This document shows positions 2,643 to 10,625 of a stretch of 33,766 nt of DNA, piece after piece. Location: NCBI GenBank assembly GCA_017936565.1, contig JAGBFG010000044.1:1-33766 (forward strand), in the 5' to 3' direction. The notes beneath the pieces are model-generated. The model was not told the DNA's origin and did not search any database. It saw only the letters and a program-made list of their open reading frames with translations. The translations under genes and the position numbers were made by a program. Positions within the stretch are counted from its first letter, which is position 1. Each line of letters starts with the position of its first letter. This stretch comes from Clostridia bacterium (GTDB taxonomy: Bacteria; Bacillota; Clostridia; Oscillospirales; CAG-272).

Positions 2643-3560
2643 TTAATGAATCGACGTAATATCGTAGGGGGTCGTCTGATAGACGTAATAGTTCAGCCAG
2701 TTGGAGTAGAGCAGGTGCGCGTGAGAGCGCCAATTCACAAGGGGCGCTTTGGTATCATCATCGTCAGGGAAATAATGATGCGGTAGATGAATGGGCTTGC
2801 CTGCGTTTTTATCTCTGAAATACTCTTTGGCGAGGGTGTCCGCGTCATATTCCGCGTGCCCCGTGACGAAAATTTGCCGCCCTTCCATCGCGCACACGAC
2901 GAAAACGCCCGCCTCTTCCGAGGAAGAAAGAATGGTGAGGTTTGGATTTTTTTCAACCTCGCTTCTCAAAATTTCCGTATGCCGCGAATGAGGAACAGGA
3001 AAAACGTCATCAAAGCCACGGAAGAGCATAGACCGTTTTCCTTCTACAACGTGGTCAAAGATGCCAAACTTTTTCTGCGGCAGGGGGTATTTTTCAATAC
3101 CGTAGTGATAATAAAGCGCCGCCTGCGCGCCCCAACAGATATGGAAGGTGCTGTGGACGTGGTTTTTGCTCCATTCCATAATCTCAACCAGCTCTTCCCA
3201 ATATTCCACCTCTTCAAAGGGCAGAAGCTCCACGGGCGCGCCTGTGATGATCATTCCGTCAAAATTGCGGTCCTTTACGTCATCAAAAATCTTATAGAAG
3301 GGAAGCAGGTGCTCCTCTGCGGTGTGCTTGGATTTGTGGGTTTTGGTGTGCATCAGGGTCAACTCCACCTGCAAGGGCGTGTTGCCCAAGAGCCGAGAAA
3401 GCTGGGTTTCCGTATCAATTTTGGTTGGCATCAGATTGAGAACCAAAATTTCCAAGGGACGAATGTCCTGCGTCATGGCGCGGGTTTCCGTCATCACGAA
3501 AATATTTTCCTCGGTCAGAATTTTAGTTGCGGGTAAAGCATTTGGTATCCGAATGGGCAA
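2643..3560 (-). CDS. metA: Homoserine O-acetyltransferase (MetA family)
   Basis: A 305-residue enzyme that acylates the hydroxyl of L-homoserine, the first committed step of methionine synthesis. It starts [10 protein letters not shown], the family N-terminus, from a TTG codon (3558-3560) preceded by GAGG eight bases upstream; no ATG fits this frame. The catalytic residues are in place: Cys142 in [10 protein letters not shown], His235 and Glu237 in VTGHAEYDA. Residue 111 is Glu (GAPVE); in this family Glu111 goes with acetyl-CoA use and Gly with succinyl-CoA, so acetyl transfer is expected. That matches the upstream gene, metY, 32 bases away in the same direction. Expression probably depends on the leader attenuator upstream of metY. 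Confidence 0.95.
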
Positions 3561-3592: not shown

Positions 3593-4876
3593 TCAGACGG
3601 TTTCAAGAGCGGCGGCAATATCGGCGATTAAATCATCCTTGTTTTCAATGCCGCAGGAATAGCGGATAAGGTCAGCGGAAACGCCTGCCGCTTCCAATTC
3701 CTCATCGTTCATCTGACGGTGGGTTGTGCTTGCGGGATGCAGGCAACAGGTACGGGCATCCGCGACGTGCGTTTCGATAGATGCCAAGCGAAGAGCGGAC
3801 ATAAACTTCTCAGCCGCGGCTCTTCCCCCTCGAACTCCAAAGCTGACAACGCCGCAGCTGCCGTTCGGCAGGTACTTCTCTGCCAAGGCAAAGTCCTCGT
3901 CACCCTCTAAGGAAGGATAGCGCACCCAAGCAATTTTCTCGTGATTTTTCAGGTATGTAGCCACTGCCAAGCCGTTTTCACAATGGCGGGGCATTCTGAC
4001 GTGCAGGCTTTCCAAGCCCAAGTTCAGAATATAGGCGTTCATCGGGGATTGAATAGAGCCAAAGTCACGCATCAGCTGGGCGGTTGCTTTGGTGATAAAC
4101 GCCCCCTCATTGCCAAAGCGCTCGGCATAGGTGACGCCGTGATAGCTCTCATCAGGCGTGCAAAGACCGGGGTATTTATCCTTGTGCGCCATCCAGTCAA
4201 ACGTTCCACTATCCACGATACAGCCGCCAACAGCAGAGCCGTGACCGTCTAAATATTTGGTGGTGGAGTGGGTAACGATATGGGCGCCGTGCTCAAACGG
4301 GCGGCAGTTGACGGGGGTGGCGAAGGTGTTATCCACGATAAGAGGCACGCCGTGCTTGTTGGCGGCGGCGACGAACTTTTCAAAATCCAGCACCTTCAAG
4401 GAAGGATTGGAAATGGTTTCACCAAAAAGCGCCTTTGTATTGGGGCGGAATGCCGTATCCAACTCCTCGGCGGTGCAATCAGGGGTGAGGAAGGTAAAAT
4501 CAATACCCATTTTCTTCATCGTGACGGAAAAGAGGTTAAAGGTGCCACCGTAAATGGCAGAGCTACAAACCACATGATCGCCCGCAGATGCAATATTGAA
4601 TATGGAAAAGAAGTTGGCAGCCTGACCTGACGAGGTCAGCATAGCGGCGCTTCCCCCTTCAAGCTCGCAAATCTTTTTAGCAACGGTGTCGCAGGTGGGA
4701 TTTTGCAAGCGGGAATAAAAATATCCGTTTGCTTCCAAATCAAAAAGCTTGCTCATAGCCTCTCCCGTTTCATAACGGAAGGTGGTGCTTTGCACGATGG
4801 GAAATTGGCGGGGCTCGCCGTTTGCCGCAGTATAGCCGCCCTGCACACAAGTGGTTTCAATGCCTGTTTTTTTCAT
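3593..4876 (-). CDS. metY: O-acetylhomoserine sulfhydrylase (aminocarboxypropyltransferase)
   Basis: A 427-residue PLP enzyme of the Cys/Met-metabolism family that converts O-acetylhomoserine and sulfide to homocysteine. Family marks in order are TTCVQGGY, the FPIVQSTTF strand, [10 protein letters not shown] (PLP phosphate contacts), [26 protein letters not shown] and the Schiff-base lysine, Lys207, in [12 protein letters not shown]. The C-terminal domain carries [17 protein letters not shown] and [13 protein letters not shown] chose ATG 4876: AAAGGA lies nine bases before it, whereas the ATG at 4894 overlaps that ribosome binding site. It is first in a two-gene operon with metA. The promoter, Met-rich leader peptide and terminator/antiterminator lie at 4921-5149. 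MetY rather than cystathionine gamma-synthase is supported by length and motif choice. Confidence 0.93.
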
Positions 4877-4920
4877 AATATCTATTCCTTTCAATTCAAA
4901 TGAAAATTTTTTAATATGAC

Positions 4921-4970
4921 GTTAAGAAAATAGCGCCCGTGAGACTGCAAGTGCAATCGCCACAAGCGCT
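4921..4970 (-). terminator. Attenuator terminator in the metY leader
   Basis: On the minus strand AGCGCTTGTG (4961-4970) pairs over ten base pairs, including two G-U, with CACGGGCGCT (4932-4941). An inner stem, GATTGC/GCAGTC with an ACTT loop, sits inside, and ATTTTCTTAA follows at once. It lies 45 bases before the metY start codon and downstream of the leader peptide, so it would stop transcription before metY. Confidence 0.72.
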
Positions 4971-5014
4971 TCATAAGGAAAAATCTTTATGAATATGTTT
5001 TTTCTTCCGCTTGT
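4962..5014 (-). promoter_or_regulatory. Antiterminator alternative to the metY terminator
   Basis: ACAAGCG inside the leader ORF (5008-5014) is complementary to CGCTTGT (4962-4968), which is the heart of the terminator's 5' arm. Between them TTCATAAAG (4985-4993) pairs with CCTTATGAA (4970-4978) with one mismatch. The two folds are mutually exclusive. The leader stop codon lies in the inner stem, so a ribosome finishing the leader would break the antiterminator. Confidence 0.65.
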
Positions 5015-5091
5015 ACAACAAAAGCACTGCCCACCGAATATAACATTCGCATCGACATTCTATTTTGCATCAAGCCGTCCAAAACCAACAT
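4987..5091 (-). CDS. Methionine-rich leader peptide of metY-metA
   Basis: A 34-residue open frame lies between a consensus promoter and the metY attenuator. It has a strong ribosome binding site, AAGGAGAGAGAAT before ATG 5089-5091. Five of its first 16 residues are Met; the core is MQNRMSMRM at residues 8-16, with three Met codons in five positions. The C-terminal half (AFVVQAEEKTYS) overlaps the 5' arm of the antiterminator, and the stop codon (4987-4989) sits in its inner stem. This is the architecture of a trp- or his-type leader in which scarcity of charged tRNA-Met stalls the ribosome on the Met cluster and leaves the antiterminator free. Stable peptide function is not implied. Confidence 0.75.
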   Translation of the reverse strand: MLVLDGLMQNRMSMRMLYSVGSAFVVQAEEKTYS

Positions 5092-5120
5092 ATTCTCTCT
5101 CCTTTTTATTCTTTTCCTTA

Positions 5121-5149
5121 ATCATACCATTCAAAAGGCGCAATGTCAA
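5121..5149 (-). promoter_or_regulatory. Promoter of the metY-metA operon
   Basis: On the minus strand TTGACA (5144-5149) and TATGAT (5121-5126) are spaced by 17 bases. Transcription would start near 5113, about 25 bases before the leader peptide start and about 240 bases before metY. Confidence 0.82.
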
Positions 5150-5193
5150 GAGTTTTTTTCGTTCTTTGGGAAAATTATTTTTGGAAGCGCGCA

Positions 5194-5230
5194 AAAAAGC
5201 CCGGAACCGAATAAACGGAACGGGCTTTTA
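5194..5230 (-). terminator. Terminator of the SDR/FAD-oxidoreductase operon
   Basis: On the minus strand AAAGCCCG pairs with CGGGCTTT around an inner CGG/CCG stem and is followed by TTTTTT. It begins 15 bases after the stop codon of the FAD oxidoreductase. Confidence 0.85.
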
Positions 5231-5244
5231 CTTGTAAGAGAAAA

Positions 5245-6549
5245 TTATTTTTGAAGCTCCTTGGCGATATACCGCGCAATGCCCTCACCCATTGACATCA
5301 TGGTTCTTGTAAGTCTTGCGGAAGAGGCAACGGTTGAAGAAAAGGACGCGCCGCGGCAGGCGGCAAAGGCATTGTCAAACTCCTTCGCTTGCGCGCACGA
5401 AAGCGGAATGCCGTAAGGCACTTGCATTTCTCCGCAGGGCATTCCCTCAATACCGTGAGAATCAAGGGCATGGTCGGAAATGGCAACATACGGCTCGTCG
5501 GGCTTTACGCCTTGCATAATGTCTTCCGTTTTCAAAACCTTTTTGCCTAAAAGGCGGTAGTCCTCTCGAATACCAGCAGCAAAAATCTTTTTAATACTGT
5601 ATTCCTTTAACTCGGGGTGAAGAGTCTGCAAATGCTCCCAATAAGCCACCGCGCGACAAACGCCGACAGCATATGCCCTCTCTCCAAGCTCAAGGTATTC
5701 CTTTCCCGTAAGAGTTGGTAGCATATTGATGTTAATATCGCCGTTTGGATACATATTGAAGCAGGATACCACGCGGGAAAGCTTTTCCTGCTTCCAAGCG
5801 CTGATATCTTCATCATAGGGTATTTGCAAGGGCGGACATTTATCCTTGCTCACGCGCAAAACGACAGACACGCCGTTTACCTTGGAGATATCGCCCTCGT
5901 ACCCGACCTCATATTGACACCCCGCATCCCGCAAAAGCACGATGCTACCGCTGGCGTCAATAAAATAGTCGGCAACGACCTCTATCTGCTCTGCTTCGTT
6001 TTCGAGAATGACGGATTTGATTTTACGCCCATCCGTTTTACAGCTCACGTACCGCGTCTTGAAGAGGGGCGTGACATAGTCGGCGTATTCTTCCATAAGC
6101 TCGCTCATTGTCTTTGTCAGCGCATCCTCGTCCATCATAAATCTTCGCCAGGACTTGTTGGTCGGGCAAAGGCTTTTGCATCGCTTCAAGGTGCTTTCGT
6201 AGTCATCCTGACAAGGCACCGAAAGCCCCCAAAGATATCCGCCTGATACCAGGGGCTCGATAAACTCCCCGATATCCTTTTTTTCGCAAAAGGTCAAGCG
6301 GCTGGGGATGCTTCTTTGCACCTCACCGCTTCCGTTTTGCAGCAATTTCTCGGCGATGATACGATGCACTCCGTCAAGAGAGACGCCCGGCTCAAAGCAA
6401 GAAACACCGCTGAAAACAGCAGTTCCGCCATAGCCCTCATGGACATCGGCAATGACGGTTTTTACCTTGCTTTGCGCCAAGCGATAGCAAGCTCCAAAGC
6501 CGCCTGCGCCCGCGCCGAGAATAAAAACGTCACAACAAAGCTTTTTCAT
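5245..6549 (-). CDS. FAD-dependent oxidoreductase (PF12831 type)
   Basis: A 434-residue flavoprotein. The N-terminus carries the dinucleotide-binding fold: DVFILGAGAGGFGACYRLAQ gives GxGxxG followed by the acidic end of strand two (VIADVHEGYGGTA). The family-typical middle strand YFIDASGSIVLLRDAGCQYEVGYEG is present, as is the C-terminal flavin loop with GASFSSTVASSARLTRTMMSMGEGIARY. Members of this family act on unknown small molecules; the cytoplasm is expected since there is no signal peptide. I use ATG 6549; a TTG two codons earlier is also possible. The gene starts seven bases after the SDR stop, so the two are probably translationally coupled. Substrate unknown. A second member of the family lies at 20396-21679. 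Confidence 0.82.
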   Translation of the reverse strand: MKKLCCDVFILGAGAGGFGACYRLAQSKVKTVIADVHEGYGGTAVFSGVSCFEPGVSLDGVHRIIAEKLLQNGSGEVQRSIPSRLTFCEKKDIGEFIEPLVSGGYLWGLSVPCQDDYESTLKRCKSLCPTNKSWRRFMMDEDALTKTMSELMEEYADYVTPLFKTRYVSCKTDGRKIKSVILENEAEQIEVVADYFIDASGSIVLLRDAGCQYEVGYEGDISKVNGVSVVLRVSKDKCPPLQIPYDEDISAWKQEKLSRVVSCFNMYPNGDININMLPTLTGKEYLELGERAYAVGVCRAVAYWEHLQTLHPELKEYSIKKIFAAGIREDYRLLGKKVLKTEDIMQGVKPDEPYVAISDHALDSHGIEGMPCGEMQVPYGIPLSCAQAKEFDNAFAACRGASFSSTVASSARLTRTMMSMGEGIARYIAKELQK

Positions 6550-7434: not shown

Positions 7435-8874
7435 ATGGAACATATTTCCATAAAAAGAATTGTTGAATGCAAGAATATAAAAAACGCTGAGGCGCTTATG
7501 AAAAACCGCGAAACGCAGGTGACGCTGTGCGAAAACAGTTATATGACCGTTGAGGAAGACGGCGGATATATTATCCTTGATTTTGGCAAGGAGATGTGCG
7601 GCGGCATTAAAATTGCCACCATTAACGTCAAAAATGAAAGAAAATGCGCGAGCATTCGGGTGCGCTTTGGCGAAAGCCTGACAGAGACCTCGGCGGAGCT
7701 TGGAGAAAAGAACGCGACAAACGACCACGCGCCGCGGGATTTTATGACCTTTCTTTCCTTTATGTCGACAATTACGGTTGGAAACACCGGTTACCGCTTT
7801 GTGAGAATAGATTTCCCTGCGGGTGCCGAGATTACGGTGAAGGCGATTTTAGGAACAAACCAGATACTGAAAAAGCGTTCAAAATACGCCTATCGCGGTG
7901 AGGATAAGCGAATAAAAGAAATTTTCGCGGCGGCAAAAAGAACGGTTGATTTGTGCTCCTCGGGCGACTATATCTGGGACGGCGTCAAAAGAGACCGTCT
8001 TGTTTGGATTGGAGATTTATACCCCGAGGTTCTGGCGCTAACGAGCATGTACGGGCGTGTTAAGGCAATAGAAAGCTCCTTGCGCTTTGAGCGCGAAAGA
8101 GAAAAAATGGACGGCATATGGATGAGCACTATTAACACCTACAATATGTGGTGGGTTGTTTGCCTTGCGGAATATTATTTCCGTGTGGGAGAAGAGGTCA
8201 AGCCCTTCGTTTTAACTCAAATTGACTATGCTGAACAGCTTATTGCATTATACGACGGGTACGTAGATGAAAACGGCGTTATCACCAACCCAAGCGGCAC
8301 GTGCGTTCTGGTGGACTGGCTGACAGCAGACAATCCTCACGATTCTCAAATCGGGGGAAGAATGATCTGGGCGCTTGGCGCTAAAAAGGCTGCCGAGCTG
8401 TTCAAAAGGCTTGGCAAAGACACGAAAACGGCAGAGCATTTATTAGAAAAGCTGACAAAGGGCGACAAGCAGGAAATTCAGGAGATGAAGTCGGTGCTTG
8501 GATTAAAGCACGCCGTTTACGGCGCGTTGTCGGACGAGGAATATCAAAAGCTCATAGAGGGTGGCGCTTGCGGACTTTGCACCTTTATGACGTACTTCAC
8601 GCTCTCTGCCATCGCCGCGCGCGATAAGGCGCTTGCTACCAAGATTATGAAGGAATACTACGGCGGAATGCTTGACAAGGGGGCTACTACCTTCTGGGAG
8701 CATTTCGATATTACTTGGGTAAAGGACAGCGGCAGGATAGACCGCTACCCCAAGGACAATCAAAAGGACATACACGGCGATTTCGGAAAAGGCTGCTATG
8801 AGGGCTTCCGACACAGCCTGTGTCACGCCTGGGCAAGCGGCGTTATCGCCTTTATAAAGGAAAACATAAAATAA
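7435..8874 (+). CDS. GH78-like (alpha-L-rhamnosidase family) protein
   Basis: A 479-residue protein without a signal peptide. Roughly residues 1-160 are beta-rich (an accessory sandwich) and 165-479 resemble the six-hairpin barrel of family GH78. VKRDRLVWIGDLYPE corresponds to the family motif RDERxxWxGD, and GATTFWEHFD followed by FRHSLCHAWASG matches the second catalytic block and the Cys-His-Ala-Trp segment. The usual RDER glutamate appears as Asp here, so rhamnosidase activity is uncertain. It may act inside the cell on a transported oligosaccharide. It is shorter than secreted GH78 enzymes. Start ATG 7435 has GGAGGGG four bases upstream. The lipoprotein gene at 8907 follows closely in the same direction. 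Confidence 0.72.
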   Translation: MEHISIKRIVECKNIKNAEALMKNRETQVTLCENSYMTVEEDGGYIILDFGKEMCGGIKIATINVKNERKCASIRVRFGESLTETSAELGEKNATNDHAPRDFMTFLSFMSTITVGNTGYRFVRIDFPAGAEITVKAILGTNQILKKRSKYAYRGEDKRIKEIFAAAKRTVDLCSSGDYIWDGVKRDRLVWIGDLYPEVLALTSMYGRVKAIESSLRFEREREKMDGIWMSTINTYNMWWVVCLAEYYFRVGEEVKPFVLTQIDYAEQLIALYDGYVDENGVITNPSGTCVLVDWLTADNPHDSQIGGRMIWALGAKKAAELFKRLGKDTKTAEHLLEKLTKGDKQEIQEMKSVLGLKHAVYGALSDEEYQKLIEGGACGLCTFMTYFTLSAIAARDKALATKIMKEYYGGMLDKGATTFWEHFDITWVKDSGRIDRYPKDNQKDIHGDFGKGCYEGFRHSLCHAWASGVIAFIKENIK

Positions 8875-8906
8875 ATTTCTTTGTTATTTACGGAAAGGGT
8901 GTGTAT

Positions 8907-10625
8907 ATGAAAAAAGCACTTATATTTCTTTTAATAACCGTCCTATTTGTTTTGGGGCTTTCGTCCTGCCTTGGCGAGGCTATGCTTGAGGTTTGCTTTA
9001 TTGTGGACGGCGAAGTATACGACACCGTCAGGGTTGGCGAAAAGGAGCTTATAACGATTCCAAAGGACCCGACCAAGGAAGGCTACACCTTTGACGGCTG
9101 GTATTGGGACAAGGACGTATGGGAAGATCCTTTTACGGCAAACTCCTTGCTCGATACTCCCCTTTCAAGCAAGATGACCGTACGTGTTTACGCAAAATGG
9201 AGCTCTCTCGGTCATACCCACACACCCGCTTTGGCCGTTAGGGAAAACGTTATTGAGCCGACCTGCAAGACCGAGGGCTCGTATGATTCTGTCGTTTACT
9301 GCGACAGCTGCGAAGAGGAGCTGTCGAGAACCCAAAACAGACTTCCTGTATCTCTGACTTCGCACAATATGGTGTCAGGTGTTTGCAGCGACTGTCATTT
9401 GACAAACAGCTCCGAGGGGCTCTTGTTTTATCTGAATGCTGATGAAAAGGGATACACCTTGGTAGGAAAAGGAAGCTTTTCGGGCGAGCATCTTTTTGTT
9501 GGCTTGTATCGGGGATTACCTGTTACACACATCGCGCAAGGGGTTTTCGCTGACACTACCTCTTTAAGAACCGTATTGATTGGGAAGGGCGTTACAAGCA
9601 TTGGAAGCGAAGCGTTTTACGGCTGTACGCGTCTTGTCAGCGTCACCCTTTCCGACACCATTACGAGCATTGAAGAAGAGGCGTTCAGTCAATGCACGGG
9701 GCTTGTCAGCGTTACCCTTCCCGACAGCGTTACGCATATCGGGAAATCGGCGTTTTATAACTGCTTCGCCATAGAGCGCCTTGTCATTGGCAAGGGCGTG
9801 AAGGATATAGAACGAAACGCCTTTAAGGGTTGCAGAGGTCTTACTGAGATAACCTTCAACGCAACGAAAATGAACGACCTTGGAACAAACAATGCCGTTT
9901 TTTCCTCGGCAGGTCAAAACGGAACGGGAATAACCGTTACCATCGGCTCTAACGTTACGCGTATACCGGCATACCTTTTCAGCCCTATTATTTCCGAAAC
10001 CTATTCTCCGAAAATCAAAACGCTTGCTTTTGAGGACGGCAGCGTTTGCCAAAGCATAGGGGAAAGTGCTTTTGAACACTGCTTCGCCCTCACAAGCCTT
10101 GAAATTCCCCCGAGCATTAAGAGCATAGAGGACGCGGCGTTTGGCGATTGCTACGCTATTACCGACATCCGTTTTAACGCCACCGAAATGGCTGACCTTA
10201 AAGCATACAATTACGTTTTTAAGCACGCGGGTAAAAAAGCCGCGGGGATCACCGTTACCGTTGGCTCTAACGTGACAAAAATCCCCGACTTCCTGTTTAA
10301 CCCTTATTCAACGGATTATCCCAAAATCACGTCAGTAGCCTTTGAGGACGACAGCGTTTGCCAAAGCATCGGTACGCGTGCGTTTTACGCGTGCGGTGAA
10401 TTAGAAAGCATCTTTATTCCCGCAAGCGTCAAGAGCATAGGAAGCAAGGCGTTTGAAAATTGCGCGGCTCTGGCATCTATACAGCTTGAAAACCCAAACG
10501 GTTGGAGTGCTGTAGATATTTATGACACGAAAACGGAATTTTTGGGGACGGAGCTTTCAAGCACAACGGTTGCCGCAAGATATCTTTGCGCCATCTACTA
10601 TGATTGCGATTGGTATCGCAAATAA
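8907..10625 (+). CDS. BspA-type leucine-rich-repeat surface lipoprotein
   Basis: A 572-residue exported protein. Residues 1-21 are a lipoprotein signal peptide: MKK, a hydrophobic run, then lipobox LSSC with Cys21. Residues 27-97 match an InlB/Listeria-Bacteroides repeat (EGYTFDGWYWDKD through VYAKW). Residues 117-165 contain paired cysteines (YCDSCEEE, GVCSDCH) resembling a small zinc-ribbon-like module. From about 185 to 530 are LRR_5 repeats such as VTSIGSEAFYGCTRLVSVTL. Two long units, about 315-398 and 421-505, are near copies of each other (FNAT, ITVTxGSNVTxIP, FEDxSVCQSIG), indicating internal duplication. Such proteins usually mediate adhesion. Start ATG 8907 fits the signal peptide; the open frame itself extends further upstream. 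A terminator follows directly. Confidence 0.88.
   Translation: MKKALIFLLITVLFVLGLSSCLGEAMLEVCFIVDGEVYDTVRVGEKELITIPKDPTKEGYTFDGWYWDKDVWEDPFTANSLLDTPLSSKMTVRVYAKWSSLGHTHTPALAVRENVIEPTCKTEGSYDSVVYCDSCEEELSRTQNRLPVSLTSHNMVSGVCSDCHLTNSSEGLLFYLNADEKGYTLVGKGSFSGEHLFVGLYRGLPVTHIAQGVFADTTSLRTVLIGKGVTSIGSEAFYGCTRLVSVTLSDTITSIEEEAFSQCTGLVSVTLPDSVTHIGKSAFYNCFAIERLVIGKGVKDIERNAFKGCRGLTEITFNATKMNDLGTNNAVFSSAGQNGTGITVTIGSNVTRIPAYLFSPIISETYSPKIKTLAFEDGSVCQSIGESAFEHCFALTSLEIPPSIKSIEDAAFGDCYAITDIRFNATEMADLKAYNYVFKHAGKKAAGITVTVGSNVTKIPDFLFNPYSTDYPKITSVAFEDDSVCQSIGTRAFYACGELESIFIPASVKSIGSKAFENCAALASIQLENPNGWSAVDIYDTKTEFLGTELSSTTVAARYLCAIYYDCDWYRK

Follow-up and report, generated by a model that had tools for sequence, protein, structure and literature searches.

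A predicted methionine-sensing attenuator upstream of metY-metA in a clostridial genome, with similar leaders elsewhere in its family

How might a clostridium sense methionine at metY-metA when neither of the usual RNA sensors can be recognised before these genes? For methionine genes in Gram-positive bacteria the usual explanation is an S-box or T-box riboswitch, according to PMC6230763. The question arises in a stretch of 33,766 nucleotides from an uncultured Clostridia bacterium (contig JAGBFG010000044.1, genome G000; hereafter the window), where a promoter, a strong ribosome-binding site, a 34-codon ORF and a terminator lie upstream of metY-metA on the minus strand, between these genes and the gene of an FAD-dependent oxidoreductase. 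An earlier note had read this arrangement as a leader peptide with methionine codons and a transcription attenuator, and sequence inspection, scans and folding placed all four parts on the minus strand where it had put them.

We think it probable that the leader is a ribosome-mediated transcription attenuator, which would sense methionine through the charging of tRNA-Met and control metY-metA. We base this reading on the sequence parts, the predicted alternative folds, the conservation in one relative and the fact that Met-rich leaders recur before metN and metY; we infer from these that the ORF is translated, that the ribosome stalls on it when tRNA-Met is uncharged, and that termination and read-through really occur.

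The leader and its surroundings

5121..5149, minus strand: sigma-70-type promoter TTGACA-17-TATGAT with TG before the -10 (extended -10), 11 of 12 matches
5098..5104, minus strand: Shine-Dalgarno AAGGAGA of the leader ORF (sequence)
4987..5091, minus strand: leader ORF of 34 codons, Met at 1, 8, 12, 14 and 16, translation MLVLDGLMQNRMSMRMLYSVGSAFVVQAEEKTYS
5010..5076, minus strand: entire 1:2 hairpin (anti-antiterminator), about codons 6-28 (minimum-energy fold)
5028..5057, minus strand: core of the 1:2 hairpin, UGUCGAUGCGAAUG-loop-AUUCGGUGGGCA, holding Met codons 14 and 16 (coordinates from pattern match)
5008..5015, minus strand: antiterminator 5' arm UACAAGCG, codons 26-28 (folding)
4987..4993, minus strand: stop-codon helix, 5' arm UUCAUAA, including the stop codon (folding)
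4970..4976, minus strand: stop-codon helix, 3' arm UUAUGAA (folding)
4961..4968, minus strand: antiterminator 3' arm CGCUUGUG (strand 3), inside the terminator 5' arm (folding; invariant in the relative)
4924..4970, minus strand: intrinsic terminator, hairpin 4970-4932 and U-tract 4931-4924, -25.7 kcal/mol
3593..4876, minus strand: metY, O-acetylhomoserine sulfhydrylase (TIGR01326, over cut-off)
2643..3560, minus strand: metA, homoserine O-acetyltransferase (NF047918, over cut-off)

Methionine makes up 5 of the 34 residues of the leader ORF. The promoter match is not significant and weighs little alone, since such sites are common in shuffled sequence (1 in the scan of positions 4000-6000 versus 2.3 in shuffles). 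The terminator hairpin was equalled in stability by 0 of 200 shuffles (z -4.9), and the tract right after it reads ATTTTCTT. A search for a hairpin plus T-tract found it with 0 of 40 shuffles as good; the simple terminator scan does not list it. The leader as a whole folds far better than its shuffles (z -5.2).

Comparison of the window leader with Rfam gave no match at gathering scores, hence neither the T-box (RF00230) nor the SAM-I riboswitch (RF00162), in agreement with what the earlier note had said of these two classes. Up to E 10, the best match was an irrelevant sRNA (sau-6072, E 2.5). The same models do detect their targets in this genome, as 8 T-boxes and one SAM-I riboswitch were found there, and absences from it are soft because it is 85% complete. 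The SAM-I site precedes metK (the protein was read as MetK) both in G000 and in G765, the genome of the relative described below. The T-boxes precede a leuA-like gene, valS, asnS, trpB, serS, ileS and two long ORFs; these gene names come from inspecting the translated ORFs by eye and not from a family search. The specifier is legible in 6 of the 8 (CTC, GTC, AAC, TGG, ATC and GTA), and none is that of Met.

Two other features of the window may be recorded. A Gut-1 RNA (RF01706) lies directly downstream of metA at 2526-2596 on the minus strand (51.2 bits against a cut-off of 50); the family also occurs at another metY locus (L005) and, below cut-off, in locus L274. At 8820-10625 on the plus strand a long ORF begins like a lipoprotein and carries repeated units that look leucine-rich; judged by eye, it would encode a surface protein of the BspA-like kind.

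Conservation in one relative and alternative folds

The closest relative of this leader was found in JAFTSW010000010.1 (locus L032; RGIG4119, a roe deer cecum MAG), whose MetY is 88% identical to that of the window and is also followed by metA (82% identity). The upstream sequence of locus L116 in G765 is the same as that of L032, so both are counted as one relative. Its leader has the same layout with a diverged sequence: a promoter TTGACT-17-TATGAT in the equivalent place and a Shine-Dalgarno AAAGGAAA (both by eye), the ORF MLFTGRHMQATLSMRMPHSVDSAFAMRLKRV, and a terminator whose 5' arm is common to both leaders. Start, reading frame, Shine-Dalgarno and stop position are kept. The ORF is 3 codons shorter in the relative, and in both leaders the stop codon lies exactly 15 nt before a common AAGCGCUUGUG.

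Over the first 24 codons the two leaders align without indels at 67% nucleotide identity. The proposed conservation of the Met cluster holds in this single relative for Met 8, 14 and 16, as it does for the initial Met, and is lost at position 12, where Met is replaced by Leu. The differences are spread over the three codon positions (9, 7 and 8), with 2 synonymous and 11 non-synonymous codon changes; for comparison, the third-position identity of metY between the two is 61%. As there is no third-position excess, much of the leader's conservation would lie at the RNA level. A nearly invariant block, UGUCGAUGCGAAUG-loop-AUUCGGUGGRCAG, folds as a hairpin, which places the constraint on RNA pairing and on the Met codons and not on the peptide.

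Folding of the unhindered RNA gives three elements in both species, namely the 1:2 hairpin, the 3:4 terminator and a helix around the stop codon. When a ribosome sits on the Met codons and strand 4 is not yet made, strand 3 pairs upstream in both species and stacks on the stop-codon helix, its partner being UACAAGCG in the window and AGCGCUUUU in the relative. The mutually exclusive antiterminator that had been described, with the stop codon in its inner helix UUCAUAA/UUAUGAA, was recovered by folding. This helix reads UUGAAAA/UUUUCAG in the relative, a compensatory change, with the stop codon itself placed in the loop. The outer arm differs in position, since in the relative it is AGCGCUUUU, at codons 22-24, that pairs with AAAAGCGCU. 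The pairing of ACAAGCG with CGCTTGT singled out by the earlier note is therefore present in the fold of the window and not conserved as such, its function being what is kept; covariation, for which the note had proposed a test in both stems, was seen in the stop-codon helix, and it rests on two sequences because among 69 genus genomes the leader was found in one other species only.

We modelled the ribosome as a footprint on the leader. With the footprint at Met 8, 12, 14 and 16 of the window, the probability that strand 3 pairs upstream, P(antiterminator), was 0.67-0.79, and at Met 8, 14 and 16 of L032 it was 0.79-0.87; with the ribosome at the stop codon it was 0 in both. High values were also obtained at non-Met codons, from about 3 to 18, so that the model locates effective stalls and not the sole importance of the Met codons. 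The extra Met 26 of the relative falls outside this stretch. Without a ribosome the value was 0.22 in the window versus 0.65 in L032, so untranslated RNA is predicted to favour termination in the window and to be mostly antiterminated in the relative, whose 1:2 hairpin is thus a weak guard. In the control on single leaders, 5 of 100 shuffles equalled or exceeded the observed probability for the window, compared with 46 of 100 for L032.

In the mechanism that we propose, RNA polymerase would transcribe the metY-metA leader with a ribosome following behind. When Met-tRNA is ample, the ribosome would reach the stop codon and occupy the stop-codon helix and strand 2, letting the 3:4 terminator form. 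When Met-tRNA is scarce, the ribosome would stall on Met 8-16 and cover strand 1; strand 2 could then pair with strand 3 in a helix that stacks on that of the stop codon, and this antiterminator would allow the polymerase to read through into metYA. Since Met-tRNA also initiates the leader, strong methionine starvation would reduce leader initiation.

Distribution of the leader and methionine-rich leaders in the family

A covariance model built from the two leaders was run with strict filters on 69 genomes of the genus, many of them incomplete. It recovered G000 and G765 (E 3.2e-36 or better) and did not find the leader in the other 67; metY is present in 57 of the 69. Matches in five other genus genomes (E 0.13-0.6) were taken as chance. 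In 78 loci the model gave L040 (3656-3798, plus strand, E 0.018) and L129 (E 0.32), both away from metY, and a rejected match on the reverse strand of the terminator itself (E 0.18). The leader pattern SMRMxxSVxSAF was found only in the window among 395 family genomes, and the hairpin pattern with up to 3 mismatches, searched in 394 genomes of the order, gave the window and one 3-mismatch match in G744 that was also taken as chance.

A T-box motif was found upstream of metY in 21 of 138 loci and in 4 of 100 further loci; some loci of the two collections belong to the same species, so the 21 cases are not independent. UAUGGC is present in 20 of these 21, and we read it as a Met specifier by analogy, as the T-boxes of G000 hold AUC or GUA likewise before a CUUCCGAG-like sequence. 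When 11 metY loci were compared with Rfam, 10 proved to be RF00230 matches with E no higher than 1.2e-14, 3 of them passing the gathering score; the eleventh, with no RF00230 match, is L116, the leader-bearing relative. Nine congeners carry the motif at metY (G777, G759, G772, G792, G773, G770, G344, G085 and G129), and most metY loci have neither a T-box motif nor a Met leader. Met T-box motifs before metY indicate that tRNA-Met is a signal for this gene in the relatives. In the congeners, metY thus appears to respond to tRNA-Met charging by way of T-boxes, and the species pair of the window appears to use the ribosome instead.

The survey upstream of metY yielded two more leaders of different sequence. 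The very compact one of L060 (JAFQVY010000017.1), MKSLYLNYNMMMCTCAFKN, lies 144 nt before metY and has a promoter-like sequence, a terminator and a long antiterminator. With 3 internal Met it falls short of our stricter criterion (at least 4) and was found with a looser one. With the A site at Met 10-12, P(antiterminator) from folding was 0.60-0.77, dropping to 0.20 one codon later. High values return from codon 15 onward and at the stop (0.61), in much weaker folds (-4 to -7 kcal/mol), and an automatically chosen arm leaves little contrast (0.43-0.55 at Met versus 0.44 at the stop). The leader of L256/L284 (G152), MNFCMYMMYDMMMCRSK, is found 178 nt before metY. Here the predictions leave the ribosome-binding site of metY, GGGAGG, paired in one of two ways, either within a local hairpin (-13.2 kcal/mol) or, in the full fold, through 4 of its 6 bases with bases just after the leader stop, so this leader may be a translational rather than a transcriptional attenuator. 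The Met-rich metY matches L076 and L093 (the same as L134) are doubtful.

Because Y[ND]MMMC is common to the leaders of L060 and L256, we searched this pattern in the 395 family genomes and obtained 19 sites in 17 genomes (two overlap), versus 3 sites for the reversed control. Among them are Met/Cys-rich leader ORFs before metN or metQ (L274, L276, L279, L280, L286, L289 and L290). The top NCBIfam model in the six metN cases is MetN, which at 352-391 bits stays below its cut-off of 499.7, while the ABC and NIL domains are over the Pfam cut-offs; the neighbour in L286 has Lipoprotein_9 over cut-off and MetQ models below theirs. Rfam with E up to 0.1 gave no match on these leaders, all matches lying upstream of the leader in L274. 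The matches L275, L277, L278, L281-L283, L287 and L288 were rejected as signal-peptide-like long ORFs, coding frames or sites where no met gene was seen, and likewise no met gene was seen beside the two G056 sites (L285/L291).

MetN itself was found in 72 of 335 family genomes at E 1e-85 or better; at this threshold it was not found in the 85% complete G000. We surveyed up to 450 nt upstream of all 72 (only 39 nt in L296 and 286 in L317) for ORFs of 10-45 codons with a Shine-Dalgarno, at least 4 internal Met and at least 11% Met. Such leaders precede 15 of the 72 genes, compared with 0 of 72 on the antisense strand (L293, L294, L295, L298, L308, L309, L315, L320, L321, L322, L326, L330, L362, L279 and L280). 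They span nine genera by label (g3, g21, g26, g30, g31, g33, g58, g64 and g70), and the metQ leader, identical in L286 and L339, belongs to a tenth (g66). Met-rich ORFs at metY were obtained in 7 of 238 sense loci (5 distinct sequences) versus 0 of 238 antisense. When all 20 residue types were compared, Met had the largest excess at metN (15:0; Leu 12:5, Cys 5:0, Ser 19:15, Arg 20:16); the same test at metY gave 5:0 for Met, which does not stand out against Asp 8:0, Glu 15:2 and Gly 16:4. Alignment of three g30 leaders showed that the arm AATCTCACGG and the terminator are conserved. Given the excess at metN and the two additional metY leaders, attenuation by Met leader peptides appears to recur as a way of regulation in these clostridia.

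The mechanism was evaluated in a pooled set of 20 leaders (the window, L032, L060, L256, the 15 metN leaders and L339). A terminator-like hairpin begins 2-55 nt after the leader stop in each of them. Against shuffled downstream sequence, the terminator within 70 nt was matched by at most 2 of 40 shuffles in 18 of the 20 leaders (0 in 16, 1 in L330, 2 in L320); those of L322 (3 of 40) and L309 (10 of 40) are doubtful. Mean P(antiterminator) was 0.75 when the middle Met codon occupied the A site; shuffling the upstream sequence lowered it to 0.56, and placing the ribosome at the stop to 0.23. In all 20 leaders the observed value lies above the mean of its shuffles, and singly a median of 10.5 of 100 shuffles reach it. 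Fold energies of the tested stretches are no better than those of shuffles in several leaders (89 of 100 in L295, 72 in L330, 56 in L293), and in L326, L330, L279 and L280 the probability at the stop is above 0.5, at odds with the simple model.

Known systems, rival explanations and meaning

In the trp, his, leu, thr and ilv attenuators, a short ORF with many codons for the regulated amino acid is combined with mutually exclusive hairpins and an intrinsic terminator. The window leader resembles them in its amino-acid-rich ORF, exclusive hairpins, terminator and cognate gene downstream; unlike them, it has Met as control codons, an amino acid that also starts translation, and its stop codon lies in the inner helix of the antiterminator. 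The T-box class senses tRNA charging by reading the tRNA directly, without translation. Its Met form (RF00230) precedes metY in relatives and has no counterpart in the window leader, and the SAM-I riboswitch (RF00162), which controls sulfur metabolism, stands in G000 and G765 at the place given above and not at metYA.

The comparisons that follow draw on the accessible parts of the papers cited. Leader-peptide attenuators of amino-acid operons are described in PMC8079986 and PMC5794164. The nearest precedent found is that of Streptomyces lividans TK24, for which the Met leader peptide metL is predicted upstream of metNIQ (PMC8079986); its start is leaderless, the authors report no typical Rho-independent terminator, and it is a prediction only. 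Like the clostridial metN leaders, metL is a predicted Met leader peptide before a methionine importer, and its end, which alternates Met and Cys, resembles them; it differs from the window leader in belonging to an actinobacterium and in not preceding metY-metA. For Actinobacteria, no conserved RNA structures are reported upstream of methionine operons (PMC1262725). In bacilli, a histidine leader at hisS/hisZ and leader peptides replacing T-boxes have been described (PMC2965389), and the ilv-leu operon of Staphylococcus aureus has a leucine-rich attenuator (PMC5794164). The hisS/hisZ and ilv-leu leaders represent classical attenuation in Firmicutes, as here, for other amino acids and genes. 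A SAM-I riboswitch of Xanthomonas also senses uncharged initiator tRNA (PMC7270179), coupling methionine genes to tRNA-Met status as the window leader would; it differs in being aptamer-based and translational, and the accessible text mentions no leader peptide. PMC6230763 and PMC9373788 concern other mechanisms. In the open-licence papers searched, no methionine leader-peptide attenuator in Firmicutes was found. The kind is known (trp/his type); its methionine version with a terminator in clostridia, for uptake and synthesis, appears to be new within that literature.

Could something other than a stalled ribosome account for these leaders? The hairpin core, nearly invariant in nucleotides and conserved as RNA with no third-position excess, would suit a riboswitch of a new kind that binds SAM, methionine or a related metabolite, with the hairpin as its aptamer and the ORF incidental. 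We consider this unlikely, as the Shine-Dalgarno, start, frame and stop position are all kept, Rfam up to E 10 offers only the irrelevant sRNA, and the other leaders of the family have Met-rich ORFs without this hairpin sequence, which a ligand-binding fold would not predict. The Met T-box motifs before metY in nine congeners bring to mind a degenerate T-box reading tRNA-Met directly, but the model that detects 8 T-boxes in the genome has no match here, and of all the alternatives this one seems to us the most improbable.

The richness of some metN leaders in Met, Cys and His would fit a functional small protein encoded in the met operon, such as a metal-binding (Met/Cys) or membrane peptide. 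However, the peptide of the window and its relative is not conserved outside the Met codons and the hairpin, and the terminators come directly after the ORFs, which makes a functional product very unlikely. We give equally little credit to a chance ORF over an ordinary terminator, or to a constitutive leader. The promoter match at regional chance level and the presence of the leader sequence in two species only would be compatible with chance; the conserved layout, the compensatory change and the equal spacing speak against it, as do the lack of antisense control ORFs in 72 and 238 regions and a terminator matched by 0 of 40 shuffles.

Attenuation by a ribosome stalled on Met codons, as the earlier note had proposed, is supported by the layout of the relative, by the ribosome-position model in both species and by the Met leaders before metN and metY in related genera. 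It seems somewhat probable, at a clearly lower level than for the window leader itself, that attenuation by Met (and Cys) leaders is general to this clostridial family, arose more than once, controls both metNIQ and metY-metA, replaces the Met T-box of close relatives and, by sensing the amino acid that starts translation, works as a band-pass sensor. If this is true, deep starvation should weaken the sensor by blocking initiation of the leader. What the window itself offers is a predicted methionine sensor coupled to translation, in a genus where other members bear a Met T-box motif at metY; kin of this leader stand upstream of methionine importer genes in ten genera of that family. The switch between a tRNA-reading and a ribosome-stalling sensor becomes directly testable within one genus, and it raises the question of how a sensor functions when its signal also limits translation initiation.
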